From Scatophagus argus (Eukaryota; Chordata; Actinopteri; Scatophagidae): DNA of 64,000 nt. The position numbers and the translations under genes were made by a program. The stretch is from contig NC_058508.1 in assembly GCF_020382885.2 (NCBI RefSeq), positions 1,356,055-1,420,054 of the forward strand. The letters run 5' to 3'. Under the pieces are notes generated by a model, which had not been told where the DNA came from, made no database searches, and saw only the letters and a program-made list of their open reading frames with translations. Below, one piece after another: positions 5,883 to 32,936 of the stretch. The number at the start of each line of letters is the position of its first letter. Within the stretch, counting starts at the first letter, position 1.

Positions 5883-5981
5883 AAGCTTACGGCACCTGGT
5901 ATTCCCAGGCGGTCTCCCATCCAAGTACTAACCAGGCCCGACCCTGCTTAGCTTCCGAGATCGGACGAGATCGGGCGTGTT
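5883..5981 (-). pseudogene. 5S rRNA gene, 3' part, split by the LINE
   Basis: About 93 bases of the 3' part of a 5S gene, read on the minus strand, from CGCCCGATCTCG to the terminal AAGC and T run. The first 28 bases lie at 12264-12291, beyond the LINE. GCGTGT(T) occurs at both breaks (5975-5981 and 12264-12270) as the target-site duplication. The A-box/C-box control region stays with this 3' part and is cut off from the natural start site. Confidence 0.93.
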
Positions 5982-6128
5982 TTTTTTTTTATCTTTTATT
6001 TATGAAAAATATTCATTTAAAATATTTACAAATTAAAAACTAACTCAAAGAAACATTTGTTCGAGTACAACACAAAATTGGCCACAAATCACAAAACGAT
6101 AAATTCAGTAGTCTAACAGCGAAAACAT

Positions 6129-9100
6129 TCAAAAATTAAAGTACACTATTTCATTCTCTATATAAAATAAACTGTGACCCTTCAAAATTCTTGCCAAAAA
6201 AGCCACTTTCCTTCCCACCAATGCTCTTATGTATTGTTTTAGAGTTGTTGTGAAGAAATCCCATATGTTTATTGTCCTTTTTTCTTTGAGTTTTATGTTT
6301 CTTGAGTTGTATATGGCATGCTTTGCGAATTGTCCCATCAAATTTATTATATCATTGGCCTTTTGCCTAGATGTGTCTCCGAAAAGGAGGAAAAGCCTCC
6401 ATTCCTCCTGTTTGTCCCACACTGCATCTGTGGTCCTTCCGAGCAGGGCTCTCAGTCTTTCCAGGAAGGGGGTGAGTGCCGGACAGTCCAGGAACATGTG
6501 TGTTATGCTCTCCTCTTGTGCTCCGCAGACAGCACAGCCCCTGGCGAAAATCTCCTTATTAATCTGGTGTAGTATGATCCCGGGATGTGTCTTCCTGCGT
6601 CTTGAACGGAAGTCTGTGTTATGTACGTTGCCAGGGGCTATGCTCCTTCTCAGGGTGGTCCATATACGGTCTCCCTTCAGATTGGGGAAGTCCATCTCCC
6701 ACGCCCGGTTGGCTGCTGGTGCTCGGTGCTTGCCCTGGACGTACGCCCAATAGAGGGTTCTCGTCTGTGTGTCCCCCAGATTTTTGTTCGTCTGTAATAG
6801 AGAAAACTCACACACATCCTCGTTAGTTTTCCCCCCCTGCCTCTGTTCGCTCAACAGGTTTAGCCACCGCTGAGGGATGGAGACAGCCAGTTTCTCACAT
6901 ATATCCTGAATTACATTTTTCCTGTGCTTTATCTTTTTTGTTTTTAGGATGTCCAGTATCACCTCTGCTTTGAGGTCACCGGATTGACCGACAACGTCCC
7001 CCAGCCTGATCAGATCAGCTTTCTCCATTGTGGCGCAGACCACCTCTCTCCCTCCCCAGGTAACATCTGGGTTATTAAAGAGGGGTTGCGCCTTAGCTTG
7101 GAGGACGTTGTCTACCTTTGCTTCTAGCAGAGGTCTCAATTTGGCCCACGCTGTCCAGACTTTCTTCCGCCAGGGGGGGTGCCACCCCTGAGCTCAAGCG
7201 AGAGCGCCCCTGACAGAGCGCCCAGAGGCCTAAAGGCGGCCCGAGATGCAGGTCCTTGATCAGTAGATGTTTCCATAAAGCCCTGTTGTCTGATGCAATG
7301 ATTTTCTTTATTAACTTTATTCTAAGGGCATTTTTTCCTGCATTCCATACTAACTAATCTCAGACCGCCTTTGTCCTCCGGCTGAATCATGACATTGTGA
7401 GCCACCTGGTTCATTTTTGTTCCCCACAGGAAGCTTCCGATGATTGAATTAATGCTATTTTCATGCTGCGGAGATAGGGGACAGACAGCCAGCACATGGT
7501 TAACCAATGAAAAAACTAGAGAGTTAACTACAATAACTTTCCCTTTTATCCCTATCTGTCTTTGCTTCCACATGTTTATTATATTTTCCATTTTTCTTTG
7601 TATTCCCTCCCAATTCTTTTCATTTGCTTTCCTCTCATTCTTACCCATCCACACACCCAAAATTTTAATCATATCACCCGTGTCTTGAAATCCCCATTGG
7701 TTCAACGTGTTTTGCTCCACCCCACACCTCATTATTTGTGTCTTGTTTGTGTTCATTCTTGCACCCGATGCCTCGCAATACGATTTTATTTTCCCCATCA
7801 CCAAATTAACACTATCCTTATCCACCACTGTGACATTTGTGTCATCCGCGTACTGAATTATCTTACAGTGCACAGCATCACCCACCCTTACACCCCGGAT
7901 GCCCTTGTCGATTTTGATCGCTGCAGCCAGAGGCTCCGTGACTAGTGAGAAGAGCATGGCAGACAGCGGGCATCCCTGTCGGATGGACCTGCCCAGCGGG
8001 AACACACCAGTGCATGTGCCGTTTAGTTTGACACAGCTTGTGGCTCCGCCGTACAAAATCTTGATCCATTTAATATACCGCTCTCCGAACCCTAACTTTT
8101 CCATGACTCGCCATAAAAAAGTGTCACGAATTGGTCGGCGTTGCTGACGCAGAAATTTACTGAACCCCGATGCAGAGTCAAAAAGGAGCAGGCAGGCAGA
8201 TCCAAGCAAAAGTCTTTAATTAAACTAAGCTAAACAAAAAACTCACTTACTGTGGCAAAAACAAGGCATGGCATGGCAAGGCAAGGCAAGGCAAAACCAA
8301 CATAACGTTCCTGGCATGGCATGGGGGAAAAAATGCAGATCCTGGCATGGCATGAGGGGAAAACTGCAGACGCTCAGACAAAGGTGACTGGGAAGACAAG
8401 GACTAAATAGACATGACAACGAGACACAGGTGACACACATCAGGAGGGAGAAAGTAATCAGGAAAACTAAAAGCAAAGCTACAAGAAAACAGGACACACA
8501 GGGGAAGTGACGCTTTTCAAAATAAAACAGGACATGACTAAAACCTTGAACATAATACATGGAAACACATGACAAGACAAACATGAAACATGGCACATGG
8601 ACTGAAATCAAGAGACAAAGCATAACCAAAAACCACCAGGCATGACAAAAAGTGTGTTCAACGCGGTCAAAAGCCTTTTCAAAATCAATGCTTAACAGAA
8701 AACCACCGGTTGTGCACATGTGTTTTATTAGGCATTTGACAGTCAGGACAGAGTCAGCAATGTCTCTGCCCGGCACGCCATACGCCTGACTGGGACCCAC
8801 CACCTCTTCTATCACCTGCTTAAGTCTGTTTGCTAGCGTTTTTGCTAGGATTTTATAGTCGGCGTTTAATAAACTAATTGGTCTATAATTCCCTAAGTTT
8901 TTCTTTTCACCTTTTTTGAAAATTATCGTTATAATACCTTTAGAAAATTTTTTTGTTGCTTTCCCTTTTTTTTCTATTTCCCTGTATATTTGCAGCAGTA
9001 TGGGAGTCAATTGAGCTTTGAAGGCCTTGTAAAATTCAGCCGTCAGGCCGTCCCATCCTGGGCTTTTGTTATTGCTTAGACCCTCTATGGCTGTCATTAC

Positions 9101-10468
9101 TTGTTGCAAGGTAAGCTCTGAGTCACACATTTCCTTGTCTGTTATATTCAATTTTCTATTTAGGCAGGCTATGTTTTCTGCCATTTGCTTTTCATTTATA
9201 TTTTGGCTGGTGAATAGATCTTTATAAAAATCTTGTGCTGTTTGAAGCACATCTTCAATTTTATTTACAATTTTCCCCTCTTTATTGACTAGTTCCTTTA
9301 TATATGTTTTTTGCTGCTTATGCTTTTCCAAGCTCAGAAAAAAGGCTGTTGATTTTTCTCCCTCTACTAGGTATTCTGCTTTTGCCCTTACTGCTGCTCC
9401 CCTGCATTTATTTATCGTTATATTATGTAATTTAGTTTGCGCAACTAAAAATAGCGTTTTGTCTCTTTTTGGATCTTTTTCTATTTTTTCTTGTTCCCCT
9501 TGGATAATTTTTAATAATTCCTCCTCTTCTTGTTTTTCTTCCCACTTTTTCCTTTTACAGTGTTTTATTGACATTTTTTTAATTTTTTCCTTAACTCCCT
9601 CCCACCATTTCGGTATGTTATCATTCCCAATCATTTCCTCCTGTATGTTTCCCAAGAAATGCTTAACTTTGCTAACGAAATTTTCATCATTCAAAATGCT
9701 GTTGTTAAAGATCCATAATCCCCCATTCCTGGGCCTACCTGCCATTCCGATCCTTAAGTACAGGGACGAGTGGTCGCTCCATCTGTTTTGCATATATTGT
9801 GCCGAATTAAGAAGGTGAATTATCGGGGGAGATAATAGGGCCAGGTCGATGCGGGATTGCTTCAGCTCATCCCCGACCAACTGTCTCCTGGAATACTCCC
9901 TGACCTCGGGATTTAACATCCTCCAGATGTCTATAAGGTTATGTGCGGACATTAAACGAAAAAGTTCCTGTCTACTCACGTCATTTTTTAGCACGCCTTT
10001 CCTTGAAGTATCATTCCTTGTTTGGATAATATTAAAATCACCTATCACCACGCATTTGTCATTTATCCATTTGTTTAATTTTCTCTTTATAAAATCCTTC
10101 CTTTCCGTTTCGTTATTGCTGCCATAAACATTCACAATTCTTATTTCCTCCCCATCTCCCCTTAAGTCTACCGCCACCAACCTTCCTTCTTCATCTGTGT
10201 GCACACAGGACACATCGTGGGGGAGGTCCGGTTTACATAAAGTTGCCACACCTGCTTTTAGCGAGGGTCCCGGGGCATAAAAAATATTCCCTTTCCAGTA
10301 TTTCTTAATTTCTTTAAAAAGTTCGTCATTCCATCGCACTTCTTGCAAGCAATAAATATCTGCGTGCGTGTTATTTAATATGTCTTTCATTTTTTCTATA
10401 GTTTTTATTCCTCTTATATTTAGAGAGGTAATAAAAATCATCAAAATGGAGAGTGGGCTAAATCTCAT
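6129..10468 (-). pseudogene. LINE ORF2 (endonuclease-reverse transcriptase), disrupted copy
   Basis: The N-terminus is an apurinic-type endonuclease: SLNIRG, LQEVRW, VIGDFN and WSDHSS supply the catalytic Asn, Glu, Asp and His. The reverse transcriptase follows with NYRPISLLN, SIDFEKAFDR, RQGCPLSAMLF and the YADD catalytic motif. The C-terminal region carries a cysteine-rich finger (CAVCGAQEESITHMFLDC). The frame is broken by the LTR at 8122-8647 and by frameshifts between about 7140 and 7330, so no full ORF2 protein can be made. Compared with copy 2, endonuclease and RT are close, but the last ~340 residues differ at roughly a third of positions by eye. Confidence 0.9.
8122..8647 (-). mobile_element. 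Solo LTR (Ty3/Gypsy type) inside the LINE
   Basis: A 526-base unit with TGTCA...TGACA ends, flanked by 5-base AAAAG duplications (8117-8121 and 8648-8652). The other LINE has the uninterrupted site. A sister LTR lies at 53131-53653. Read on the minus strand, it has an AATTAAA poly(A)-like signal near the 3' end and ends shortly after a GACTCTGCATCGG stretch. It is a fossil with no coding part, young enough to keep clean ends. Confidence 0.88.
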
Positions 10469-10490
10469 AGCTTTATTCGTTTGCCTTTAA

Positions 10491-12011
10491 TTATTTCTTT
10501 CTTCTCATTATTCTCTCCGATTTATTGTCCCGTGATTTCTTTTTATTTTGCAATTTTTGTGCCACATCTCTCTCCAGGTCCGAGTCAGAGGAGATTTGCT
10601 TGCGACTTGGGAAGGAGGGCCCAGGCACGCTCTCCTTTTTCCTCAGTTTATCAGCGAGCAGGGATGCACTGGAGCGGCAGGTGGGTTTTATAAAGCCGTC
10701 ATCTGACATGCCGCTTTCGGCTTGAGAAATTGATTCAGGTGCCATGCTAACCATGCTACACCTAACATGCGAGTCTTTCTCATCCCTCGTCAGTCTCCGG
10801 GCAGGGTCCACAGCCCCCCCATCCACGGCTGCCGGCATCCTGACCCCTGTGCTACCTATTCCAGGCGCACCTTTTGATGTGGAGTCCAGGGCAGGGCCCT
10901 CTGCACGAGCCCCCCCCGCCCGCTCGGGAGCAGAGCCCATCTCAGGAGCTCCCTCCTCCGCTGGGAGAACGCGATGTTTTCCACCTGCCTTCAGCTCCTC
11001 TTTGCCACCCGACACAATAGTCTCGGTCTCATCTGCCTGTAACCTCGGCACAGCGGCACTGCTCTGAGCCTTTCCCTCCCGAGTCGCCTCTTCCTCTTCC
11101 ATGCTGGATTCTGCCTGCTCCTCTTCGGTAAGTTCAGTCCCATCCTCCGCCTCACTCTCTTCTCTACATATGCATTTTTCCATTTTGTTAAAACATATTT
11201 TGCACCTTGGAATTGTTTTTGTGCATTCTCTGGCATAATGCCCCTGCACCCCGCATTTATTGCAGAAGAATTCCGGGCAGTCTCTCACGATGTGTCCCGG
11301 CTGCACACATATCCTACAAACACGGACCTGTCGGTCGTGAATCACTCTAAAATACTCTGGTCCCGCCGCTGTGTTAAATTTTGCCGAATAAGGCAGAGAT
11401 TGAACCGCATCATTAAATTTGACTTTAACAAAACGTGTCCCATCCGCCACCTTAGTTCCTGGCCACATACGTCGCCTTATTTGGGATACCGCTGCCACTT
11501 TCCATGACTCTAGTTTTTCTAGAATCTCCGCGTCAGTCACATATGCCGGCAAGCCCAGGAATGAGACTACTAGCTCATCATTTGCTATTTCTTTTCCCTG
11601 CACCATTGTGTTGCCGATCTTGTAGCCATCTAAAAGTTTATTTTTTCCGGCTGAACTTCCCATTGTTATTTCATATTTATTCGGTCCAGTATTTCTGCAC
11701 GCATTAATACTGCCACACATTAGACGCGTGAATCGAATTAACTCGACCGGTGTGACTACTTCTTCTCCTTTTAATTCTACTGTTACCGTCAGTTCCCTTG
11801 CATATCCCGTCTCCTGCATTTTTTTATTATATGCTTCTGACTTACCTCCATTTTGCTGGCTGTCTGTCTCCCTCCCCGCCATCTCATCTCCGCAATATGC
11901 ACTTACCCGATTGCTTTCATCATATTCGGCTGTGTTCCTGCCGTTGTTTTGTCCGTTGTCCTGTGTCATGGTCTTTTGTTCGTTCCTGGGTCTGTTACCG
12001 GTGATGTCCAT
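10491..12011 (-). CDS. LINE ORF1 protein with CCHC zinc knuckles, copy 1
   Basis: An intact 506-residue frame, first in the LINE. Residues ~1-60 are low-complexity and polar. Residues ~60-230 form a globular RRM-like region (VELIRFTRLMCG, VVSFLGLPAYVTDAEIL). Then come CCHC knuckles: CRICVQPGHIVRDC at about 231-244, CNKCGVQGHYAREC at about 250-264 and a cysteine cluster CKICFN/CIC just after. The C-terminal half is acidic and then Ala/Pro/Gly-rich, ending in a basic tail (KLQNKKKSRDNKS, RRKK). Family knowledge: Tx1/L1-group ORF1 proteins bind the element RNA and form the retrotransposition particle. ORF2 starts 22 bases after it. The protein is near-identical to copy 2 for the first ~260 residues, then differs at scattered sites. 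Confidence 0.9.
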   Translation of the reverse strand: MDITGNRPRNEQKTMTQDNGQNNGRNTAEYDESNRVSAYCGDEMAGRETDSQQNGGKSEAYNKKMQETGYARELTVTVELKGEEVVTPVELIRFTRLMCGSINACRNTGPNKYEITMGSSAGKNKLLDGYKIGNTMVQGKEIANDELVVSFLGLPAYVTDAEILEKLESWKVAAVSQIRRRMWPGTKVADGTRFVKVKFNDAVQSLPYSAKFNTAAGPEYFRVIHDRQVRVCRICVQPGHIVRDCPEFFCNKCGVQGHYARECTKTIPRCKICFNKMEKCICREESEAEDGTELTEEEQAESSMEEEEATREGKAQSSAAVPRLQADETETIVSGGKEELKAGGKHRVLPAEEGAPEMGSAPERAGGARAEGPALDSTSKGAPGIGSTGVRMPAAVDGGAVDPARRLTRDEKDSHVRCSMVSMAPESISQAESGMSDDGFIKPTCRSSASLLADKLRKKESVPGPSFPSRKQISSDSDLERDVAQKLQNKKKSRDNKSERIMRRKK

Positions 12012-12263
12012 CCTGCTGCGTATTTACAAAAAGAAAAAACAGGAACGAAACAGAAGCGATAGCAAACAAAAAACAACTCCCCGACAGTCCACAGGACCGC
12101 GGGGAGCGAAAAAAAACACACTATTTAATAACGGGGGAAAAAAAGAAAATAAAATAATGAATAGTTTAACTCAAAAAAACCCCGAAAAAAGAACTCCTCT
12201 CTGTCCAAGTCTCAAGAAACAAAACACCCGCTCTCTCCTCCTTCCGTACCACCTGACAGACAT

Positions 12264-12291
12264 GCGTGTTCAGGGTGGTATGGCCGTAAGC
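12264..12291 (-). pseudogene. 5S rRNA gene, first 28 bases, split by the LINE
   Basis: Reads GCTTACGGCCATACC onward on the minus strand up to the GCGTGTT target duplication. The natural 5S start and the upstream TATA-like box stay intact directly upstream of the LINE 5' end. The rest of the gene is at 5883-5981. Confidence 0.92.
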
Positions 12292-12604: not shown

Positions 12605-12609
12605 AAAAA
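12605..12609 (-). terminator. Pol III T-run terminator of 5S unit 1
   Basis: GCTTTTTCAC on the minus strand immediately follows the 5S 3' end. All intact units have the same five-T run. Confidence 0.85.
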
Positions 12610-12727
12610 GCTTACGGCACCTGGTATTCCCAGGCGGTCTCCCATCCAAGTACTAACCAGGCCCGACCCTGCTTAGCTTCCGAGATCGGACGAGATCGGG
12701 CGTGTTCAGGGTGGTATGGCCGTAAGC
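12607..12727 (-). rRNA. 5S ribosomal RNA (unit 1)
   Basis: A full 121-base vertebrate-type 5S gene starting GCTTACGGCCATACC. It keeps the internal control region (A box AGCTAAGCAGGGTCGGG; C box GGATGGGAGACCGCCTGGG) and ends at GTGCCGTAAGC plus a T run. The product is the large-subunit 5S rRNA, transcribed by Pol III with TFIIIA. Confidence 0.97.
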
Positions 12728-12750
12728 CGTCTCAGTCCTCACGGCGGGGC

Positions 12751-12758
12751 CTTTTAAA
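12751..12758 (-). promoter_or_regulatory. TATA-like box of the 5S genes (shown for unit 1)
   Basis: The minus strand reads TTTAAAAG about 24-31 bases upstream of the 5S start. The same motif lies upstream of every 5S copy here, including the split ones (about 12315 and 29478). Many animal 5S genes have such a -30 element; its role here is inferred from position. Confidence 0.7.
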
Positions 12759-13059
12759 GACGCCGTGGCATCGCTATGCTGCAGATGAAATAAATCTTCG
12801 GATTACAGTGAATATGGAATGAACATACAATATTCTCTTCTCAAGTGTACTAGATAAGTAGCATACAGTCTCACGAATATGAAACATTGAAACGAAGCAG
12901 TAGTTCTGGAGAAAACTGGAACTAGGCGACATTCCACGCTTGCCATCGCAGCTGGTTATGATTCAAAGCTGCTTATGATTCAAAGCTGCTCATTTCATCA
13001 GGGATGGATCTCCACTGAGGTACCAAGAGAGCCCTTTCCTGGTTGCTAAGGGGAGTGAA

Positions 13060-13180
13060 AAAGCTTACGGCACCTGGTATTCCCAGGCGGTCTCCCATCC
13101 AAGTACTAACCAGGCCCGACCCTGCTTAGCTTCCGAGATCGGACGAGATCGGGCGTGTTCAGGGTGGTATGGCCGTAAGC
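13060..13180 (-). rRNA. 5S ribosomal RNA (unit 2)
   Basis: Same sequence as unit 1 by eye, with the internal promoter and T-run end intact. The downstream spacer is the long type (17-base motif doubled). Confidence 0.97.
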
Positions 13181-13495
13181 CGTCTCAGTCCTCACGGCGG
13201 GGCCTTTTAAAGACGCCGTGGCATCGCTATGCTGCAGATGAAATAAATCTTCGGATTACAGTGAATATGGAATGAACATACAATATTCTCTTCTCAAGTG
13301 TACTAGATAAGTAGCATACAGTCTCACGAATATGAAACATTGAAACGAAGCAGTAGTTCTGGAGAAAACTGGATCTAGGCGACATTCCACGCTTGCCATC
13401 GCAGCTGGTTATGATTCAAAGCTGCTCATTTCATCAGGGATGGATCTCCACTGAGGTACCAAGAGAGCCCTTTCCTGGTTGCTAAGGGGAGTGAA

Positions 13496-13616
13496 AAAGC
13501 TTACGGCACCTGGTATTCCCAGGCGGTCTCCCATCCAAGTACTAACCAGGCCCGACCCTGCTTAGCTTCCGAGATCGGACGAGATCGGGCGTGTTCAGGG
13601 TGGTATGGCCGTAAGC
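13496..13616 (-). rRNA. 5S ribosomal RNA (unit 3)
   Basis: Full-length, same sequence as unit 1 by eye. It is followed by the short 436-base spacer class with a single 17-base motif. Confidence 0.97.
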
Positions 13617-13948
13617 CGTCTCAGTCCTCACGGCGGGGCCTTTTAAAGACGCCGTGGCATCGCTATGCTGGAGATGAAATAAATCTTCGGATTACAGTGA
13701 ATATGGAATGAACATACAATATTCTCTTCTCAAGTGTACTGGATAAGTAGCATACAGTCTCACGAATATGAAACATTGAAACGAAGCAGTAGTTCTGGAG
13801 AAAACTGGATCTAGGCGACATTCCACGCTTGCCATCGTAGCTGGTTATGATTCAAAGCTGCTTATGATTCAAAGCTGCTCATTTCATCAGGGATGGATCT
13901 CCACTGAGGTACCAAGAGAGCCCTTTCCTGGTTGCTAAGGGGAGTGAA

Positions 13949-14069
13949 AAAGCTTACGGCACCTGGTATTCCCAGGCGGTCTCCCATCCAAGTACTAACC
14001 AGGCCCGACCCTGCTTAGCTTCCGAGATCGGACGAGATCGGGCGTGTTCAGGGTGGTATGGCCGTAAGC
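13949..14069 (-). rRNA. 5S ribosomal RNA (unit 4)
   Basis: Full-length, internal promoter and T-run end intact. The spacer has a T substitution in CATCGTAGCTGG that is also seen below unit 6. Confidence 0.97.
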
Positions 14070-14401
14070 CGTCTCAGTCCTCACGGCGGGGCCTTTTAAA
14101 GACGCCGTGGCATCGCTATGCTGGAGATGAAATAAATCTTCGGATTACAGTGAATATGGAATGAACATACAATATTCTCTTCTCAAGTGTACTGGATAAG
14201 TAGCATACAGTCTCACGAATATGAAACATTGAAACGAAGCAGTAGTTCTGGAGAAAACTGGATCTAGGCGACATTCCACGCTTGCCATCGCAGCTGGTTA
14301 TGATTCAAAGCTGCTTATGATTCAAAGCTGCTCATTTCATCAGGGATGGATCTCCACTGAGGTACCAAGAGAGCCCTTTCCTGGTTGCTAAGGGGAGTGA
14401 A

Positions 14402-14522
14402 AAAGCTTACGGCACCTGGTATTCCCAGGCGGTCTCCCATCCAAGTACTAACCAGGCCCGACCCTGCTTAGCTTCCGAGATCGGACGAGATCGGGCGTGT
14501 TCAGGGTGGTATGGCCGTAAGC
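14402..14522 (-). rRNA. 5S ribosomal RNA (unit 5)
   Basis: Full-length and intact. The spacer upstream has CTCATGGCGGGG in place of CTCACGGCGGGG. Confidence 0.97.
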
Positions 14523-14854
14523 CGTCTCAGTCCTCATGGCGGGGCCTTTTAAAGACGCCGTGGCATCGCTATGCTGCTGATGAAATAAATCTTCGGATTA
14601 CAGTGAATATGGAATGAACATACAATATTCTCTTCTCAAGTGTACTGGATAAGTAGCATACAGTCTCACGAATATGAAACATTGAAACGAAGCAGTAGTT
14701 CTGGAGAAAACTGGATCTAGGCGACATTCCACGCTTGCCATCGTAGCTGGTTATGATTCAAAGCTGCTTATGATTCAAAGCTGCTCATTTCATCAGGGAT
14801 GGATCTCCACTGAGGTACCAAGAGAGCCCTTTCCTGGTTGCTAAGGGGAGTGAA

Positions 14855-14975
14855 AAAGCTTACGGCACCTGGTATTCCCAGGCGGTCTCCCATCCAAGTA
14901 CTAACCAGGCCCGACCCTGCTTAGCTTCCGAGATCGGACGAGATCGGGCGTGTTCAGGGTGGTATGGCCGTAAGC
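14855..14975 (-). rRNA. 5S ribosomal RNA (unit 6, array edge)
   Basis: Full-length. Only about 31 bases of upstream spacer remain before the junction with block D at TTTAAA, but these still include the TATA-like box. Confidence 0.96.
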
Positions 14976-18043: not shown

Positions 18044-18056
18044 TGACAACAAACAA

Positions 18057-18780: not shown

Positions 18781-18879
18781 GGAAAGATAGAAATGAAAAT
18801 ACAAGAAACACAACCCAAATAAAGAATCCACTCCAATTCTTTGGAGCCTCGCGTATCACCACCACCAAGAGCGGAGTCA

Positions 18880-19560: not shown

Positions 19561-19725
19561 GCCAATGTCCGTGCCGGTTCTGAGTTTAAACTCAGGAATT
19601 TATGACTTAGGTGCACGTCATGAGTGGGGTCCCTAACAGTTAGTCACTCTAACTCAGGCTTTATGGGTTACATGTAGGCCGCTCTATTGTTCTCCAGAGC
19701 GCATGGCCAGAGATCCCAACAGATG

Positions 19726-20502: not shown

Positions 20503-20812
20503 GTGCTTCGAGAGGCTTGTTATGAGTCACATCAAGACCCTGTTGCCGGCCTCACTGGACCCGCTGCAGTTTGCATATCGTCCCAACTGCTCTACAGACG
20601 ATGGCTTTGCCACCACTGTCTTGTTGTCTATACTTTTATTGTACTGTTGTATTTCGGACTCATGCTTTTTTTTTTATCTCTATACTCAATATTTGTACTC
20701 CTTTTTTAAGCACCATGTAGTATCCTGGAGGAACGTTGTGTCATGGCTGTATGCACTACACACACAGTTGTAATGACAATAAAAAAAATCTCCTTGACCT
20801 TGACCTTGAACA
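20503..20812 (+). mobile_element. L2-like LINE, 5'-truncated scrap (D1)
   Basis: Encodes part of a reverse transcriptase ([20 protein letters not shown]) and then a 3' UTR ending in a CTTGAC-repeat tail, as in CR1/L2-group LINEs. About 100 bases after the RT part, present in D2, are absent here. It is far too short to be active. Confidence 0.75.
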
Positions 20813-21649: not shown

Positions 21650-23241
21650 CAGTGTGTAAATAGGCCATAGATGTTATGGTCTGTGCCTTTCCTTCCCCCC
21701 TCATGTGTGCTGTTTTCTCCCTCCCCTTTGTTTCTTGTGGTTCCTTGCTTGTGTCTCTCTGTGTCTGTGTTCTGGGTGTGGCTCATCAGTCCTGCTGCCA
21801 ATCAACTCCTGCTGCCAATCTGCCTGCTCACCTGAGATCCATCCACTAATCATCTCCAGCTGTACAAATACCCTGGCTCTGCAGTCTACTCTCTGCCAGA
21901 TCGTTCGGTCTACCTTCTGGTACTAACCTAGTTAGGATTGAGTATACGCACAACGCTTTGCATTGTTCATCCTCTGGTCTCTCTCTTTTTCATTGTGCCT
22001 ATGGCTAACTAGCTAGTTATTGTTAGCTTTTTTTCCCCTGTGTGATGTTTTGCTAAAGACTTGTGTAACCCGGGTGAAAAAACCCACATATTAGTTTCCC
22101 CCTACTCTATTCTGATATCGTGAATCCATTTTGCGGCTGACGTCATCACGTTGCTACGGTCATGTGACCTAGCGTGGCCAATTGAGTGGGCATAAGTGAC
22201 TAGCGACCGGTAAGTACAAGAGAAGCACACTTGTCGCGTGTTGCTGGAGGAGCCGGCCACCGAAGCCGTCGAGAGCGTTTGTACGAAGCTTGAATGTTGT
22301 TAAACTGCAAATTAGCCAGGTTTTGATGGCGAGCTAGGAATCAGAGAGTTCAATGGGATAAGCCTGAAGATTCTCCCAGGACTCAGCTGAATCAACCTTA
22401 CTGCACTTTGGGCTGGCAGGAGGTTCCCTTGTGCAGCAGCCCCAACTTCTCATTTCTTCCCCCCCCCTCTGCAACTTCCAAACACGGCCACTACACTTAC
22501 ACTCCTCAATCCCTCAATACGCCTGGACATTCTCAAGCAGAACCCTCACGCATTTTTGGGTCATTGAACTGTGTCGTGCTTCCGGGATACAGACAAAGCA
22601 TTGTATCCTTCCTTTGGAAGGGTTTGCAGGATGTATTTTATATTGTGTGGAAATTGTACATTTTGTTGTGCGCACATTGGTTGTCTATCTGATTCAATGT
22701 AATTGTCTATGTTTTTTGTTGTCTTTCACAATATATGGTAGCACTCACTTAAAAAACTGAATCCTTTTATTTTATTCTCCTCTCCTAGAGCCGAATCTGG
22801 ATTTCTGACACTGGCCCAATAATCGAATGCTGTTGTTTAGTATTCAGCTGTTGTTTAGTATTCAGCTGAACCATAAATTAAGTAATATATAGGTTACACT
22901 TGTCTTTTCCGCTGCAGATCATTGCCTGTGGGTCTCCTGTGAGTCAGCCACTTCTGCCTGCCACCTGCTTCCAGCCTTGCTCTGTCTGCCTGTCTGTCTG
23001 CCTGCCTGTCCTGCATTTCCTGAGGCCTCAGAATCACCGAAGACGTCCTTTCTCTGTTGTTTCAAGAAAATAAAGCCACTTACAACTGTTTTCCAGGTCT
23101 TGCTTTTGGGTCCAGTTCTCTCTACACACTGTACAACAGCTGGGTTCTGGTCCTCCACCTAGTGGCAAGGAAAAATTCTGGCCCACGACCTAAATTACTT
23201 GCCAGTCCCTGCCCTATACCAACTTCAGTAACCCACCTTGA
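21650..23241. repeat. Block B, copy 2
   Basis: Near-identical to 3613-5200, starting at the same CAGTGTGTAAATAGG and ending at the same ACTTCAGTAACCCACC junction with 5S spacer. The shared junction shows that B and the 5S cassette were duplicated together. Broken retroelement composite, no coding function seen. Confidence 0.8.
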
Positions 23242-23548
23242 TCCTCACGGCGGGGCCTTTTAAAGACGCCGTGGCATCGCTATGCTGGAGATGAAATAAA
23301 TCTTCGGATTACAGTGAATATGGAATGAACATACAATATTCTCTTCTCAAGTGTACTGGATAAGTAGCATACAGTCTCACGAATATGAAACATTGAAACG
23401 AAGCAGTAGTTCTGGAGAAAACTGGATCTAGGCGACATTCCACGCTTGCCATCGCAGCTGGTTATGATTCAAAGCTGCTCATTTCATCAGGGATGGATCT
23501 CCACTGAGGTACCAAGAGAGCCCTTTCCTGGTTGCTAAGGGGAGTGAA
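23242..23548 (-). repeat. 5S spacer, left edge of cassette 2
   Basis: One short-class spacer (single 17-base motif) between block B and the split 5S gene. Unlike cassette 1 there is no extra deleted 5S unit here. Confidence 0.9.
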
Positions 23549-23648
23549 AAAGCTTACGGCACCTGGTATTCCCAGGCGGTCTCCCATCCAAGTACTAACC
23601 AGGCCCGACCCTGCTTAGCTTCCGAGATCGGACGAGATCGGGCGTGTT
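23549..23648 (-). pseudogene. 5S rRNA gene, 3' part, split by LINE copy 2
   Basis: The same 3' part of 5S as at 5883-5981, broken at the same base. GCGTGTT (23642-23648) is repeated at 29427-29433. The first 28 bases of the gene are at 29427-29454. Confidence 0.93.
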
Positions 23649-23833
23649 TTTTTTTTTTTTTATCTTTTATTTATCAAAAGTATTCATTTAAAATATTTAC
23701 AAATGTTTTAAAACAGAGTCAAACAAAAGAACAAAACCATTTGTTTCCTTCTTAACCAAAAATTAGCCACAAAACACAACACAATGATAGCATACATAAA
23801 TGAATGATTATAAATCTATGCAAACACATGCAT

Positions 23834-26800
23834 TCAAAAGTTGAAGTACACTGTGTCTTTTTCCAAATAAAATAAAAGGTGGCCGTTCAAAATTTTTTTC
23901 AGATCGTCCGTTTTTCTTCCCACCAGTGCTCTTATGTATCGTTTTAAAGTTGATGTGAAAAAGTCCCATATGTCCATTGTTCTTTTTTCCTTAAGCTTTG
24001 TGTTTCTTCTGATGTATATGGCATGTTTTGCGAACTGTCCCATCAGATTTATTGTTGCATTGGCTTTGTATCTTGTTGTGTCTCCAAAAAGGAGAAAAAG
24101 CCTCCATTCCTCTTCTTTGTCCCACACTGCACCTGTCGTCTCTGCAAGCAGAGTTCTCAGCTTCTTCAGGAACGGGACTAGCGCTGGACAGTCCAGGAAC
24201 ATGTGTAGCATTGTCTCCTCTTTTCCTCCACATACAGAACAACCTCTAGAAAAGACCTCTTTGTTTATTTGGTGTAGTACGACACCAGGATGTGTCTTCC
24301 TGTGTCTTACGCGGAAATCCGTGTTGTGCACGTTTCCAGGGGCTATGTTCCTCTTCAAAGTTGCCCAGATGCGCTCTCCCTTTATGGTGGGGAAGGCCGT
24401 CTTCCACGCCTTATTCGCCGCTGGTTCTCTTTGGCTGCCTCGGATAAACATGTGATAGAGGGTTTTCGTCTGGGCTTCTGTCAATCTTGCTTGTGTCTGT
24501 AGGAAAGAGAACTCACATACATTCTCATTAGCTTCCCTCCCCCGCCCTCCCATCAGCCTTAGCCACCGCTGTGGGATCGAGGTGGCCAGTTTGCTACAAA
24601 TGCTCCGAATAGCAGCTTTCTTATGTTTTATTTGTTTTCTCTTCAGTGTGTTTAGGATCTCTGCGATTTCGAGACCTCCGGCTTGGTCGACAACGTCCCC
24701 TAGCCTGATCAAGCCAGCTCTCTCCATAGTGGCGCAGACCACCTCTCTCCCTCCCCAGGTAATATCTGGGTTGTTAAAGAGGGGTTGCGCCCTTGCCTGA
24801 TGGACGTTGTCCACCTTTGCCTCCAACAGAGGTCTCAATTTGGCCCACGCCGTCATGATTTCCTCCACCATGGGGTCAGCCACCCCAGAGCTCTTGTGAG
24901 AGCGCCCCTGGCAGAGTGCCCAGAGGCCCAAAGGCGGTCCGAGATGCAAGTCTCTAATAAGAGCATTTTTCCAAATATTATTGTTTTCATGAGCTATGAT
25001 TTTCTTTATTAATTTTATTCTGAGAGCATATTTTCTGCATTTTATACTAGTTAATCCTAGACCGCCTTTGTCCTCTGGCTGGATCATGACTGCGTGGGCC
25101 ACCTGATTCATTTTTGTTCCCCACAGGAAGCTTCCGATGGCCAAATTCATGTTTTTTTCCTGCTGCGGAGATAGGGGACAGACAGCCAGCACATGGTTCA
25201 CCAATGAAAAAACTAGAGAGTTAACTATAATGACTTTCCCTTTTATCCCTATCTGTCTTTGCTTCCACATGTTTATTATATTTTCCATTTTTCTTTGTAT
25301 TTCTTCCCAATTCTTTTCATTTGCTTTCTTCTCGTTCTTACCCATCCACACACCCAAAATTTTAGTCATATCACCCGTGTCTTGAAATCCCCATTGGTTT
25401 AACGTGTTCCGCTCCATCCCACACCTCATTATTTGTGTCTTGTTTGTGTTCATTTTTGCACCTGATGCCTCGCAATATGATTTTATTTTCCCCATCACCA
25501 GATTAACACTGTCCTTGTCCACCACTGTGATGTTTGTGTCATCCGCGTACTGAACTATCTTACAGTACGCAGCATCACCCACCCTTACACCCCGGATGCC
25601 CTTGTCGATTTTGATCGCTGCAGCCAGAGGCTCCGTGACTAGTGAGAAGAGCATGGCAGACAGCGGGCATCCCTGTCGGATAGACCTGCCCAGCGGGAAC
25701 ACACCAGTGCATGTGCCGTTTAGTTTGACACAGCTTGTGGCTCCGCCGTACAAAATCTTGATCCATTTAATATACCGCTCTCCGAACCCTAACTTTTCCA
25801 TGACTCGCCATAAAAAAGTGTGTTCTACGCGGTCAAAAGCCTTTTCAAAATCAATGCTTAACAGAAAACCACCGGTTGTGCACATGTGTTTTATTAGGCA
25901 TTTGACAGTCAGGACAGAGTCAGCAATGTCTCTGCCTGGTACGCCATACGCCTGGCTGGGACCCACCACCTCCTCTATCACCTGCCTAAGTCTGTTTGCT
26001 AATGTTTTTGCTAGGATTTTATAATCGGTGTTTAATAAACTAATTGGTCTATAATTCCTTAAGTTTTCCTTTTCACCTTTTTTGAAAATTATTGTTATAA
26101 TGCCTTTTGAAAAATTTTTTGTTGCTTTCCCTTTTCTTTCCATTTCCCTGTATATTTCCAGCAGGATGGGAGTCAGTTGAGTTTTGAAGGCCTTGTAAAA
26201 TTCAGCCGTCAGGCCGTCCCATCCTGGGCTTTTGTTTTTGCTTAGACCCTCTATGGCTGTCATTAGCTGTTGCAAGGTAAGCTCTGAGTCACACATTTCT
26301 TTGTCTGTTATATCTAGTTTTCTGTTTAGGCAGGCTATGTTTTTTGCCATTTGCGTTTCATTTATACTTTGGCTAGTGAACAGATCTTTGTAAAAATCCT
26401 GTGCTGTTTGAAGCACCTCTTCAATTTTGTTTACAATTTTCCCCTCTTTATTAATTAGTTCCTTTATATATGATTTTTGCTGCTTATGCTTTTCTAAGCC
26501 TAGAAAAAAGGCTGTTGATTTTTCTCCTTCTATGAGGTATTCTGCTTTTGCCCTTACTGCTGCTCCCCTGCATTTATTTATTGTTATATTATGTAATTTT
26601 GCTTGCGCAACTAAAAATAGCGTTTTGTCTCTTTTTGGATCTTTTTCTATTTTTTCTTGTTCCCCTTGGACAATTTTTAATAATTCCTCCTCTTCCTGCT
26701 TTTCTTCCCACTTTTTCCTTTTACAGTGTCTTATTGACATTTTTTTGATTTTTTCTTTAACTCCCTCCCACCACTTCAGTATATTATCATTCCCAATCAT

Positions 26801-27634
26801 TTCCTCCTGTATGTTTCTCAAGAAATGTTTAACTTTGTTGATGAAATTTTCATCCTTCAAAATGCTGTTATTGAAGATCCATAATCCCCCATTCCTGGGC
26901 CTACCCGCCATTCCTAACCGTAAATGCAGGGACGAGTGGTCGCTCCATCTGTTTTGTATATATTTTGCCGAATTTAAAAGGTGAACTATCGGGGGGGATA
27001 ATAACGCCAGGTCGATGCGCGATTGTTTCAGCTCATCCCCGACTAACTGTCTTCTAGAATACTCCCTGGCTTCAGGATTTAACATCCTCCAGATGTCTAT
27101 GAGATTATGTGTGGACATTAAACGAAAAAGTTCCTGTCTACTCACGTCATTTTTTAGCACGCCTTTCCTTGAAGTATCGCTCCTTGTTTGGATAATATTA
27201 AAGTCACCTATCACAACGCATTTGTTATTTATCCATTTATTCAATTTTCTCTTTATAAAATCCTTCCTTTCCGTTTCGTTATTGCTGCCATAAACATTCA
27301 CAATTCTTATTTTCTCCCCGTCTCCCCTTAAGTCTACCGCCACCAACCTTCCTTCTTCATCTGTGTGCACACAGGACACATCATGAGGGAGGCCCGGTTT
27401 ACATAGAATTGCCACACCTGCTTTTAGCGAGGGTCCTGGGGCATAAAAAATATTCCCTTTCCAGTATTTCTTGATTTCTTCAAAAAGTTCGTTATTCCAT
27501 CGTACTTCTTGTAAGCAATAGATGTCTGCGTGCATGTTATTTAATATGTCTTTCATTTTTTCTATCGTTTTTATTCCCCTTATATTTAGAGAGGTAATAA
27601 AAATCATCAAAATGAAGAGTGGGCTAAATCTCAT
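23834..27634 (-). CDS. LINE ORF2: endonuclease-reverse transcriptase
   Basis: An intact 1266-residue frame. Endonuclease, residues ~10-240: SLNIRG (Asn), LQEVRW (Glu), VIGDFN near 145, and WSDHSS (Asp-His). A lysine/glutamate-rich linker follows at ~290-360. Reverse transcriptase, residues ~470-770: SPGWDGLTAEFY, NYRPISLLN, SIDFEKAFDR, RQGCPLSAMLF, and catalytic YADD near 695. The C-terminal domain has a cysteine/histidine finger (CSVCGGKEETMLHMFLDC) near 1130. By family knowledge it nicks the 5S target and reverse-transcribes the element RNA there. It starts 22 bases after the ORF1 stop, so translation probably relies on reinitiation. All key catalytic residues I can check are present. Confidence 0.95.
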   Translation of the reverse strand: MRFSPLFILMIFITSLNIRGIKTIEKMKDILNNMHADIYCLQEVRWNNELFEEIKKYWKGNIFYAPGPSLKAGVAILCKPGLPHDVSCVHTDEEGRLVAVDLRGDGEKIRIVNVYGSNNETERKDFIKRKLNKWINNKCVVIGDFNIIQTRSDTSRKGVLKNDVSRQELFRLMSTHNLIDIWRMLNPEAREYSRRQLVGDELKQSRIDLALLSPPIVHLLNSAKYIQNRWSDHSSLHLRLGMAGRPRNGGLWIFNNSILKDENFINKVKHFLRNIQEEMIGNDNILKWWEGVKEKIKKMSIRHCKRKKWEEKQEEEELLKIVQGEQEKIEKDPKRDKTLFLVAQAKLHNITINKCRGAAVRAKAEYLIEGEKSTAFFLGLEKHKQQKSYIKELINKEGKIVNKIEEVLQTAQDFYKDLFTSQSINETQMAKNIACLNRKLDITDKEMCDSELTLQQLMTAIEGLSKNKSPGWDGLTAEFYKAFKTQLTPILLEIYREMERKGKATKNFSKGIITIIFKKGEKENLRNYRPISLLNTDYKILAKTLANRLRQVIEEVVGPSQAYGVPGRDIADSVLTVKCLIKHMCTTGGFLLSIDFEKAFDRVEHTFLWRVMEKLGFGERYIKWIKILYGGATSCVKLNGTCTGVFPLGRSIRQGCPLSAMLFSLVTEPLAAAIKIDKGIRGVRVGDAAYCKIVQYADDTNITVVDKDSVNLVMGKIKSYCEASGAKMNTNKTQIMRCGMERNTLNQWGFQDTGDMTKILGVWMGKNEKKANEKNWEEIQRKMENIINMWKQRQIGIKGKVIIVNSLVFSLVNHVLAVCPLSPQQEKNMNLAIGSFLWGTKMNQVAHAVMIQPEDKGGLGLTSIKCRKYALRIKLIKKIIAHENNNIWKNALIRDLHLGPPLGLWALCQGRSHKSSGVADPMVEEIMTAWAKLRPLLEAKVDNVHQARAQPLFNNPDITWGGREVVCATMERAGLIRLGDVVDQAGGLEIAEILNTLKRKQIKHKKAAIRSICSKLATSIPQRWLRLMGGRGREANENVCEFSFLQTQARLTEAQTKTLYHMFIRGSQREPAANKAWKTAFPTIKGERIWATLKRNIAPGNVHNTDFRVRHRKTHPGVVLHQINKEVFSRGCSVCGGKEETMLHMFLDCPALVPFLKKLRTLLAETTGAVWDKEEEWRLFLLFGDTTRYKANATINLMGQFAKHAIYIRRNTKLKEKRTMDIWDFFTSTLKRYIRALVGRKTDDLKKILNGHLLFYLEKDTVYFNF

Positions 27635-27656
27635 TGCTTTATTCGTTTACTTTTGA

Positions 27657-29177
27657 TTATTTCTTTCTTCTCATTATTCTTTCCGATTTGTTGTCCCGTG
27701 ATTTCTTTTTATTTTGCAATTTTTGTGCCACATCTCTCTCCAGGTCCGAGTCAGAGGAGATTTGTTTGCGACTTGGGAAGGAGGGCCCAGGCACGCTCTC
27801 CTTTTTCCTCAATTTATCGGCAAGCAGGGATGCGCTGGAGCGGCAGGTGGGTTTTTTAAAGCCGTCATCTGACATGCCGCTTTCGGCTTGAGAAAATGAT
27901 TCAGGTGTCATGTCAACCATGCTACACCTAACATGCGAATCTTCCTCATACTTTGTCAGTCTCCGGGCAGGGTCCACAGCCCCCCCATCCACGGCTGCCG
28001 GCATCCTGACCCCTGTGCTACCTATTCCAGGCGCACTTTCTGATGTGGGGTCCAGGGCAGGGCCCTCTGCACGAGCCCCCCCCGCCCGCTCGGGAGCAGA
28101 GCCCGTCTCAGGAGCTCCCTCCTCCGCTGGGAGAACGCAATGTTTTCCACCTGCTTTCAGCCCCTCTTTGCCACCCGACACAATAGTCTCGGTTCCAACT
28201 GCCTGTAACCTTGGCATGGTGGCACTGCTTTGAGCCTTCCCCTCCTGAGTCGCCTCTTCCTCTTCCATGCTGGATTCTGCCTGCTCCTCTTCGGTGAGTT
28301 CAGTTACATCCTCTGCCTCACTCTCTTCCCTGCATATGCATTTTTCTATTTTGTTAAAACATATTTTGCACCTTGGAAATTGTTTTGTGCATTCTCTGGC
28401 ATAATGTCCCTGCACCCCGCATTTATTGCAGAAAAATTCCGGGCAGTCTCTCACGATGTGTCCCGGCTGCACACATATCCTGCAAACACGGACCTGCCGG
28501 TCGTGAATCACTCGGAAATACTCCGGTCCTGCCGCTGTATTAAATTTTGCCGAATAAGGCAGAGATTGAACCGCATCATTAAATTTGACTTTGACAAATC
28601 GTGTCCCATCCGCCACCTTAGTTCCTGGCCACATACGTCGCCTTATTTGGGATACCGCTGCCACTTTCCATGACTCTAGTTTTTCTAGAATCTCCGCGTC
28701 AGTTACATATGCCGGCAAGCCCAGGAATGAGACTACTAGCTCATCATTTGCTATCTCTTTTCCCTGCACCATTGTGTTGCCGATCTTGTAGCCATCTAAA
28801 AGTTTATTTTTTCCGGCTGAACTTCCCATTGTTATTTCATATTTATTCGGTCCAGTATTTCTGCACGCATTAATACTGCCACACATTAAACGCGTGAATC
28901 GAATTAACTCGACCGGTGTGACTACTTCTTCTCCTTTTAATTCTACTGTTACCGTCAGTTCCCTTGCATATCCCGTCTCCTGCATTTTTTTATTATATGC
29001 TTCCGACTTACCTCCATTTTGCTGGCTGTCTGTCTCCCTCCCCGCCATCTCATCTCCGCAATATGCACTTACCCGATTGCTTTCATCATATTCGGCTGTG
29101 TTCCTGCCGTTGTTTTGTCCGTTGTCCTGTGTCATGGTCTTTTGTTCGTTCCTGGGTCTGTTACCGGTGATGTCCAT
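27657..29177 (-). CDS. LINE ORF1 protein with CCHC zinc knuckles, copy 2
   Basis: An intact 506-residue frame, same length as copy 1. An RRM-like globular part (~60-230) is followed by CCHC knuckles (CRICVQPGHIVRDC, CNKCGVQGHYAREC) and a third Cys cluster (CKICFNKIEKCIC). An acidic segment (ELTEEEQAESSMEEEEA), a Pro/Ala/Gly-rich segment and a basic tail complete it. Its expected role is element RNA binding and particle assembly. Differences from copy 1 begin at the third knuckle (KQFPRC versus KTIPRC) and rise toward the C-terminus. The first ATG of the frame directly follows a stop-containing 5' UTR, so this start is favoured. Confidence 0.92.
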   Translation of the reverse strand: MDITGNRPRNEQKTMTQDNGQNNGRNTAEYDESNRVSAYCGDEMAGRETDSQQNGGKSEAYNKKMQETGYARELTVTVELKGEEVVTPVELIRFTRLMCGSINACRNTGPNKYEITMGSSAGKNKLLDGYKIGNTMVQGKEIANDELVVSFLGLPAYVTDAEILEKLESWKVAAVSQIRRRMWPGTKVADGTRFVKVKFNDAVQSLPYSAKFNTAAGPEYFRVIHDRQVRVCRICVQPGHIVRDCPEFFCNKCGVQGHYARECTKQFPRCKICFNKIEKCICREESEAEDVTELTEEEQAESSMEEEEATQEGKAQSSATMPRLQAVGTETIVSGGKEGLKAGGKHCVLPAEEGAPETGSAPERAGGARAEGPALDPTSESAPGIGSTGVRMPAAVDGGAVDPARRLTKYEEDSHVRCSMVDMTPESFSQAESGMSDDGFKKPTCRSSASLLADKLRKKESVPGPSFPSRKQISSDSDLERDVAQKLQNKKKSRDNKSERIMRRKK

Positions 29178-29426
29178 CCTGCTGCGTATTTACAAAAAGA
29201 AAAACAAGAACGAAACAGAAGCGATAGCAAACAAAAAACAACTCCCCGACAGTCCACAGGACCGCGGGGAGCGAAAAAAACACACTATTTAATAACGGGG
29301 AAAAAAAAGAAAATAAAATAATGAATAGTTTAACTCAAAAAACCCCGAAAAAAGAACTCCTCTCTGTCCAAGTCTCAAGAAACAAAACACCCGCTCTCTC
29401 CTCCTTCCGTACCACCTGACAGACAT

Positions 29427-29454
29427 GCGTGTTCAGGGTGGTATGGCCGTAAGC
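29427..29454 (-). pseudogene. 5S rRNA gene, first 28 bases, split by LINE copy 2
   Basis: Natural 5S start plus GCGTGTT target duplication, directly upstream of the LINE 5' end. The TATA-like box about 24-31 bases upstream (near 29478) is intact. Confidence 0.92.
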
Positions 29455-29920
29455 CGTCTCAGTCCTCACGGCGGGGCCTTTTAAAGACGCCGTGGCATCG
29501 CTATGCTGCAGATGAAATAAATCTTCGGATTACAGTGAATATGGAATGAACATACAATATTCTCTTCTCAAGTGTACTAGATAAGTAGCATACAGTCTCA
29601 CGAATATGAAACATTGAAACGAAGCAGTAGTTCTGGAGAAAACTGGATCTAGGCGACATTCCACGCTTGCCATCGCAGCTGGTTATGATTCAAAGCTGCT
29701 CATTTCATCAGGGATGGATCTCCACTGAGGTACCAAGAGAGCCCTTTCCTGGTTGCTAAGGGGAGTGAAAAAGCTTACGGCACCTGGTATTCCCAGGCGG
29801 TCTCCCATCCAAGTACTAACCAGGCCCGACCCTGCTTAGCTTCCGAGATCGGACGAGATCGGGCTGTTCAGGGTGGTATGGCCGTAAGCCGCCTCAGTCC
29901 TCACGGCGGGGCCTTTTAAA
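29455..29920 (-). repeat. 5S spacer and array edge, cassette 2
   Basis: A single short-class spacer unit around the 5S gene at 29770-29889, ending at the same CCTTTTAAA/TTTATAGTG junction with block D as in cassette 1. Cassette 2 thus has two 5S positions where cassette 1 has eight. Confidence 0.92.
29770..29889 (-). rRNA. 5S ribosomal RNA, one-base-deleted copy at array edge
   Basis: Full 5S sequence except that ATCGGGCGTGTTC reads ATCGGGCTGTTC, a one-base loss near the LINE target site. The internal control region and T-run are intact, so it may still be transcribed. The missing base lies in the helix I/loop A to helix II region and could impair folding. It could equally be called a pseudogene. 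Confidence 0.75.
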
Positions 29921-30903
29921 TTTATAGTGAATGTTGGGATCTCATGCCATGTGCTGAGATTCATGATAGAGAGACCCCCACAAGACTGAAGATTTCTTTT
30001 TTTCCCTTTCTTTGAATGAGTGCCAAAACCTCACTCTCCATACCTAGGTGTGAGGTTTAGTTTAAGTTGGGTGAGAGCCACTGGGGGTCCCCATTCCCTT
30101 TTAGTTAAGTCATCCAGGTAATAAAAGCATCCTTGCTGCACACCTCCAGGCTTTTTCCCTGTGCACCGTCGCTACAGTGACAGCTACTCCAGGCTCTTGT
30201 TGGTGTCCTGGTCACCAAAGGGAGCACATTAGAAAGCTTAATTATTTTACTCTCTTTTATCTCAATATTTAGGCCACAAGTCTTTAACTTTAACCCCATC
30301 TACACTGACCATTCCCCATCTATCCCATATCTCATGTTGTTAACTGCTTTCCTGCCTGCATAACATCCACCACCCGCCCTGGGTGAGGGATCCCTCCTCT
30401 ATTGTTCATCCTGGGGTTTCTTCCATTTTTCCTTGTTAAAGGTTTATCTGGGAGTTTTTCCTTCGTTGATGTGAGGGTCGAAGGGCAGAGGATGTTGCTA
30501 TGATGTTTTGTAAAGCTCTTTGAGAGAAACTGCTTGTAAAAATGGGCTATATGTAGCGGGTACCGCCGAGACGGCACCATAAGAACAGATAAATATCCTG
30601 AAATTCAGGAGAATAAAGATGAGGCAGGGCAACAGCGTATTTGTGCTCTCTGCAGTTATTTTATTAAACATTTCCCTGAATAGGTACATGTTCCCTTTAA
30701 GAATCATCTTTACATGCAATGTATACTTTATGTCTAATGTCATGTAACATATGTATTTCAATTTCCATGTCAAACAAATACCCATTAGAAACTAAATCTC
30801 CATATACAGAATACATGTTTACATCAATACTAAATACAAAATCCATGCTAAATAATTATCCATTTAAATTGATTTGAATGCATTTGCAAACTTTCATTAT
30901 CGG

Positions 30904-32473
30904 TAACAGTTTAGCACTTACTGTGCATAGAGTCTGGAGGCTGCCACAAGACTGGACTGGTTGTAGTGGTTGTTACTGGAGCGTTACTGACCGCTGTTCT
31001 TGTCTTGGATCCCTCCAGTGGGTCTTTTTGAATCACCTTTGCCACAGTCTGAACACTACCTAGGGCTGTCTTTCTTGGTATAGTGACTGAATGTTTTGCG
31101 CTATTCTTTACTGGGATAGTAACATAGGGTCTCTTTGAACTCTGCACTTTCAGTAGGCCCTCTCCTACCATTAACTCTGACAAGTGCGCATCATCTTCAT
31201 TAGGTTCAAATAAAAGAAGATCAGGTCGATCGATAGCAGATGGAACCTGGCATTTTATCCAAGCTACTTGTCCAGCTGGAATAATCGTATCATGAGTGCC
31301 AGTCCGCAGCCGTCCATGATGCGCATATGTTTTGCCAGCTTGAATAAAGGTCTCTAGTGACTCAGCTTTCTCAGTAGGCATTGACATTGCATCAGCAAGG
31401 AGAGTGATAAAAGCTGAGACGAGTTCTGCTGGTCGACTTCGGACCACTTCCTCCAGCACATTGAATCCAAGTAGTGGCTGGCCAAGTGGAACACTGCAGA
31501 CAAGGAAAGGTACTGTTATGGGTTCACTGAAGCTGCCATTTCCACTCAAGCTGACTGTGATGAGGACCCAGCCATCAAAAGGAAGAATGTCTCCATTCAC
31601 AGCCTGGACCTCTAGCTCTTCCTTGTCATCAAATATTTCACTGAGCGGTCTGACTGGTGTGTCTGGTAGTATTACTCTTTCCAGCTTCACTCAATCATGC
31701 TCACTTGAACTCCCGTGTCCAGCAATGCTTTGACTATCAAGCCGTTTAAGTTACACTGCACAAGGGCTTTGGCTCCTATGAACTTGGCCAGACGCCTACT
31801 CATTTGTGTGGGCAGGGAAAGAGGGGATTGGGCAAATGTTTGCTCATAGGTGTCTTTCTGCTTTTGTTTCATTACAGCTCACTGAGTCTTTTTGATGTTA
31901 GAGTCACACATGTCACACTCAGCAGTGTGGGGTGGGCTCAGTTGGGACTGTGAGGGAGGCCCAGTCACTGCTTGTCCCGTGGCAGGGACTGGTTCCACAT
32001 CAACTTTGGTTCTCTTGTCTTGTGCTGCGGCGGCTTCAAGTTGTGTGCTATGTATATTTACATATTTCTGACGCACAACTGTCCCCAGACGTCTTTGTCT
32101 CTTGTTCTCAGTGTTTGTTATCTTCATCATTTGTTTTAGGATTGTCTCATCAGACGCGTTGCTGTCTGAGAGCAGGGGTTTCAGCTCTCGACATATGTCA
32201 TCATGCTTGCGGCCAAGACCCTGATATATTGTGTGGAGAAAAATGTCTTGAACTGTGCTTGTATTGTATTTCACATCTTTGTCAGTGTATTTGGAAGCGA
32301 ACAAAATCTTTTGTTTGAGGCCGATAACTCGCTACAAGAACTGTTGTGGCGTCTCATTGTCATTCTGTTTTGTGCACATGAGCTCTTGGAAAAGTTCTGT
32401 GTTACTGCACCCACCTAGATGAGACTGTAGAAATCCTTTGAGTTCATCTTTTCATGTTATGGTGAATAGGATG
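30904..32473 (-). mobile_element. gag/protease fossil (copy in D2)
   Basis: The same fossil as at 15990-17559, with the same LLDTGVQVSMI protease motif and only a few base differences. It arrived by duplication of block D. Broken, about two or three breaks. Confidence 0.7.
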
Positions 32474-32901
32474 TGTTGTGCGACTTAGTAGGAGCAATTT
32501 GGTTATTGGCAAACAGCCAATGATTATGGGAAATAATCATTAAAGTAAAATCAGTGTATGCTTAATACACGTAAATATCGGGGCACCACCCTGTCACCAG
32601 GGACCAATAGCCAAATTAATAAATGGGAAATAACAGTCTCTTAAAATTGTGAAGGATGAATCCGAGCACTGGCTGTCATGAATTCAGCTGTTATCACAAG
32701 TACATACACAATAACCACAGACAACGACAGGTTAAAATATAACAGGATTTATTAACCAGCAACAACCATCCATAGATAAGTATCACTTTGTAATAAACAC
32801 TATTATAATCTAAGTTTTATCAACACACATTAACTATTAACTAGGAATAACACAGGTACAGCAGCAAGAGTATATTTATATATAGGTGTGCATATATACA
32901 G

Positions 32902-32936
<35 letters not shown>

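Follow-up and report, generated by a model that had tools for sequence, protein, structure and literature searches.

The window analysed here, a stretch of 64,000 nucleotides (C16:1356055-1420054) from a host assembly of 570.7 Mb in 48 contigs, contains a 5S rRNA gene that is interrupted in the sense orientation by a full-length long interspersed nuclear element (LINE) with both open reading frames (ORFs) intact. We have little doubt that this element is an autonomous, site-specific retrotransposon without long terminal repeats (LTRs) of the Mutsu kind. It is a new member of the 5S-targeting LINEs known from zebrafish (Mutsu) and not a new phenomenon. The copy at 23649-29426 of the window is called LINE B and a second copy, at 5982-12263, LINE A. 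Positions in the 5S gene are numbered as its bases 1-119; one 5S unit has ~453 bases, of which the gene takes up 119.

Anatomy of LINE B and its insertion site

The features of LINE B are as follows.

23649..29426, minus strand: LINE B, full length, 5,778 bp, with 5S junctions on both sides, a duplication and poly(A)
29427..29454, minus strand: 5S gene bases 1-28, upstream of LINE B
29427..29433, minus strand: target-site duplication, 5' copy
27657..29177, minus strand: ORF1, 506 amino acids (aa), two CCHC zinc knuckles (residues 232 and 250)
23834..27634, minus strand: ORF2, 1,266 aa, APE-type endonuclease, reverse transcriptase (YADD) and C-terminal CCHC
23551..23648, minus strand: 5S gene bases 22-119, downstream of LINE B
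23642..23648, minus strand: target-site duplication, 3' copy

LINE B and the gene that it splits both lie on the minus strand. The element is flanked on each side by GCGTGTT (plus strand), which reads AACACGC in the gene and corresponds to 5S bases 22-28. Because the poly(A) tail runs into 5S bases 22-23, the duplication is certain over 5 bp and reaches 7 bp at most. The APE domain of ORF2 spans residues 15-233. Rfam detected 5S genes in the window, among them the broken ones at 23551-23664 (LINE B) and 5894-5992 (LINE A) and six unbroken tandem genes with an empty target (12609..14975, minus strand). The original prediction had placed LINE B in a 5S gene with both frames intact, and its coordinates and anatomy hold, with all 506 and 1,266 codons of the two frames open. 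It had further described LINE A and LINE B as breaking the gene after base ~28, with GCGTGTT on each side and in the sense of the gene; the junctions, when read, agreed.

Three further observations concern the 5S genes and the 5' end of the element. The 5S gene at 29772-29889, upstream of LINE B, lacks C26, exactly within the target site; a cut that was not followed by insertion may have left this gap as a scar, or it arose by chance (7 of 119 positions). At 5501-5548 lies a 5S remnant whose bases 1-37 pass straight into the gene's 3' end. Five aligned 5' ends of the LINE are conserved over the first ~40 bases (29387-29426) but not over the remaining 5' untranslated region (UTR), and the conserved part is possibly a promoter or an RNA element. 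A pairing element at the same end, formed by TCAGGTGGTACGG and an inverted copy of the start of the 5S gene, was considered and is not claimed: its score was reached by 2,072 of 20,000 shuffles for the whole gene and 1,165 of 20,000 for bases 1-28, although 0 of 5,698 other LINE windows reached it against bases 1-28.

Copies and junctions across the host genome

A genome search with ORF2 gave 43 listed matches, with 37 of 2,109 first-look candidates scored, so that weak copies may be missed. Among the listed matches, 21 share 52-100% identity, and every one of these lies in the 5S clusters on C16 or C11; 22 weaker ones (25-36% identity) are spread over various contigs. Of 26 matches listed for ORF1, 24 are on C16 and C11, one stands beside a 5S gene on C15 and one is on C19. 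Ten loci on three chromosomes have one or both ends within a 5S gene, all in sense orientation; where later inserts split a copy, its ends were assigned to one element by collinearity. The ten loci are:

LINE A
LINE B
C11 18.9-39.8 kb
C11 48.5-50.9 kb (runs into N)
C15 23.08 Mb
C16 47.2-50.1 kb
C16 51.4 kb
C16 71-81 kb
C16 92-111 kb
C16 121-125 kb

The original prediction had proposed to tabulate the insertion base in the host genome. This was done: the 5' junction comes after base 28 in eight of nine cases (A, B, C11 39.8, C16 47, 51, 71, 121 and C15), and the 3' junction falls on base 22 in six of seven (A, B, C11 18.9, C11 48.5, C16 50.1 and 81.4). The opposite outcome, a majority of copies away from 5S genes or at varying positions within them, was sought genome-wide and not found. 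All nine 5' ends start with a common element end, GTCAGGTGGTACGGAAG, or one- or two-base variants of it, and they carry five distinct joint signatures:

ATGTCT: A, B
ATGTTTGCTT, with a common base change: C11 39.8, C16 47, C16 51, C15
ATGCGTCTCT: C16 71
ATGCTTTGCT: C16 121
GTGCAC: C16 92

The ATGTTTGCTT copies probably go back to one event spread by duplication. Under a uniform model, the chance that four of five signatures fall at one base of 119 is about 3e-6. A genome-wide search for the poly(A)-5S joint with at most one mismatch found three places, all of them copies of this family, and a reversed control gave 0. Two other LINE families served as controls: the 3' flanks of their near-identical copies (three and ten) were unrelated in 13 of 13 cases, and in the three-copy family the 5' flanks were unrelated as well.

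These junctions bear directly on whether the copies merely accumulated in 5S arrays without base specificity. The copies are indeed concentrated in few 5S clusters, but the gene makes up only about a quarter of each unit (119 of ~453 bases) and yet holds every junction read, 9/9 at the 5' and 7/7 at the 3' side, with eight and six, respectively, at one base. We give accumulation of this kind practically no credence.

LINE A and the descent of the copies

LINE A occupies the same 5S site.

5982..12263, minus strand: LINE A, ORF1 open, ORF2 broken
12264..12291, minus strand: 5S gene bases 1-28, upstream of LINE A
10491-12011, minus strand: LINE A ORF1, open
5884..5981, minus strand: 5S gene bases 22-119, downstream of LINE A
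5975-5981 and 12264-12270: flanks of LINE A, GCGTGTT on the plus strand

Its ORF2 is disrupted by a 522-bp insert (8125-8646) and further frame breaks. This insert has a 9-bp duplication, AAAAAGTGT, and relatives at 53131-53653 (81%) and at about 89.7-90.2 kb of C16.

The blocks around the two elements are duplicated at 98.6-99.1% identity (3613-5512 vs 21650-23554; 14495-20616 vs 29427-35530). These duplications are recent, and more matching pieces lie at 45214-47262 and at C11 54848-60000. The elements themselves are about 99% identical over the first ~0.75 kb, mostly 4-10% different in the middle (one 200-bp window: 0.5%) and about 19-31% different over most of the last 1.4 kb, while the flanks differ by about 1%. 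The ratio of nonsynonymous to synonymous substitution rates (dN/dS) between A and B is 0.19 in ORF1 and 0.23 in ORF2. Given this divergence and these ratios against near-identical flanks, A and B diverged as coding elements for much longer than their flanks have been apart. Since the two copies lie in a recently duplicated block and have a common 5' end, they are on their own weak evidence for targeting. The original prediction had argued from these two hits to target specificity; the specificity stands, on the genome-wide junctions, whereas the argument itself carries less weight than it seemed to, as A and B are not clean independent hits.

The duplicated surroundings and the common 5' end of A and B would also suit a single founder insertion copied passively through duplication of 5S arrays and exchange between chromosomes, the fixed base then reflecting common descent. 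Some copies did spread in this way. The copies at C15 23.08 Mb and C16 51.4 kb are cut by the same foreign sequence after ORF1 residue 169 (97.9% over 986 bp) and hence represent one insertion copied between chromosomes, and both belong to the four copies with one 5' signature and base change. A single founder is nevertheless very unlikely, as it has to face five different 5' signatures and 3' ends of A and B that differ by ~25%. Moreover, it offers no room for living, coding lineages, which the dN/dS values require: against LINE B, the ratio is 0.10-0.27 in 15 of 16 comparisons, all of which use LINE B and are thus not independent, with the oldest near saturation. From these ratios it follows that the copies diverged as living elements under purifying selection.

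Among the copies found, LINE B alone has an ORF2 open from end to end (listed ORF2 matches), and the suggestion that it could be a source copy is therefore a reasonable one. Over LINE positions 1518-5776, the copy at C11 18.9-39.8 kb most resembles A, whereas over 734-1512 it most resembles B; from such patterns, the copies are mosaics, presumably formed through gene conversion. In the copy at C16 50.1 kb (L035, about 2330-2480), LINE position 3136 is followed at once by the last AAATAAAAGA, poly(A) and then 5S base 22, an internal deletion that either arose after insertion or was already present in a shortened RNA. ORF2 scans of public collections (viral contigs and genome contigs) found no relatives, and scans with Rfam and for tRNAs, made to see what other LINEs target, found nothing at 16 loci, of which 15 belong to other LINEs and one (L028) to the 5S LINE family.

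Points against a fixed target and the second 5S class

Several observations weigh against insertion of a living element at one fixed base. The independent events number about five and not ten, because four 5' junctions have a common signature and A and B another. In the old copy at C16 92-111 kb, both joints lie around base 32 (5' end after base 32 at C16 92, 3' end near base 32 at C16 111.5), and a clear duplication is lacking. One dN/dS value, from a short comparison (C16 121-125, ORF1, 153 codons), is 0.55, and the dependence of all ratios on LINE B given above counts on the same side. On C19 (21.389 Mb) lies a degraded fragment with 58% identity in part of ORF1, the ends of which were not seen; a 5S gene was absent from the 1.5 kb read there. 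Lastly, none of the 22 same or nearly same targets on C24 had a copy listed by the 3'-end, ORF2, joint or ORF1 searches.

A pattern search for 5S genes with at most three mismatches gave 47 sites, of which those 22 are on C24, and the five C24 genes that were read match the gene of the window through base 39. The C24 genes (L050, L051) form a second class, with other spacers and in both orientations, and with the same target sequence. By the searches made, LINE copies occur in one class only, that of the units of C16, C11 and C15. If the events number about five, C24 would be missed with a probability of 0.08-0.09 (sites counted by hand), which is not significant. Target choice may depend on more than the 5S sequence, with chromatin, germline expression or the position of one 5S class as a guide, but we regard this as rather improbable; collapsed arrays and selection could be simpler reasons for the absence. 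Two 5S classes with the same target and copies found in one of them make it possible to test sequence against chromatin. In zebrafish, the two 5S types are reported to differ in the retrotransposon target site (PMC5513064), whereas here the target site is the same in both classes.

Proposed mechanism of insertion

The layout of the insertions is that of target-primed reverse transcription, by which insertion would proceed in a Mutsu-like manner. In the 5S gene, the ORF2 endonuclease would nick the non-coding strand between bases 22 and 21 (5'-GGGCGTGTT^CAGGG-3'). The GTGTT end released there could then pair with the element RNA at its poly(A) tail and prime reverse transcription, and a cut of the coding strand after base 28 would leave a 7-base stagger that becomes the AACACGC duplication. 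The order of the nicks, the priming and the choice of target by ORF2 are proposed on the model of established LINE biochemistry. The internal RNA polymerase III promoter of the 5S gene would stay downstream of the element, and the split gene would for this reason be unable to make normal 5S rRNA. With dozens of 5S genes in the genome, the element would be tolerated. Since both of its frames are open and its target base is fixed, the LINE lends itself to biochemical work on how an APE-type endonuclease directs site-specific insertion.

Another element in the window

A 978-aa ORF at 37934-40870 has SCAN and integrase C-terminal domains that precede the reverse transcriptase, which is uncommon among LTR elements. 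We take this domain order to be the Gmr1-like one.

Comparison with known elements

The LINE B ORF2 product is nearest to L1 ORF2p among solved structures and matches the human protein with an E value of 1e-86 over residues 11-866, through the catalytic motifs. Against full-length human L1 ORF2p it scores 291-295 bits, only to residue 877; an L1-like family of this host reaches 594 bits and matches along the entire length, and two other LINE families (C9 and C13; 40% mutual identity) score 301 and 324 bits. LINE B and L1 have the APE endonuclease and the reverse transcriptase in common, but L1 is dispersed. An R2-like identity does not fit: R2-like LINEs carry a restriction-like endonuclease in place of an N-terminal APE domain, whereas here an APE domain is present at the N-terminus and R2 is matched via the reverse transcriptase only (E about 3e-10). 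Target-specific LINEs with APE-type endonucleases belong mainly to the Tx1 and R1 clades (PMC4640811). LINE B encodes an endonuclease of the APE type, its reverse transcriptase is closest to the L1 group, and the putative Tx1-clade label of the original prediction is consistent with this.

Another clade of APE-type LINEs could have gained the 5S target independently. Jockey-like LINEs in Tribolium 5S arrays indicate that association with 5S genes arose more than once (PMC11202950), and the one in Tribolium freemani has the same 5S home as LINE B but belongs to another LINE lineage (PMC11202950, PMC8869645). However, the affinity to L1 ORF2p, the clades to which such target-specific LINEs mainly belong (PMC4640811) and the agreement with Mutsu in target and layout (PMC11202950) make a separate origin unlikely. 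Dada-5S of fish also resides in 5S genes but is a DNA transposon (PMC11202950, PMC8869645). Keno (U2 snRNA genes) and Dewa (tRNA-Leu spacer) of zebrafish likewise target multicopy RNA genes, though different ones, and Keno has an APE-type endonuclease as LINE B does (PMC3706591, PMC4640811).

A Mutsu-kind assignment remains preferred. The zebrafish LINE Mutsu (Kojima and Fujiwara 2004, as cited) targets 5S genes, a statement of the original prediction that is also made in PMC3706591 and PMC11202950, and has two ORFs in about 5.5 kb with UTRs (PMC11202950). LINE B, with a fixed 5S base in its family (8/9 and 6/7 junctions) and two ORFs in 5,778 bp, corresponds to it in 5S insertion, ORF number and size (5.8 kb vs about 5.5 kb), the comparison being one of published descriptions; the host, presumably also a fish, is different as far as can be told. 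The pattern of 5S-inserted LINEs described in zebrafish thus extends to another genome.

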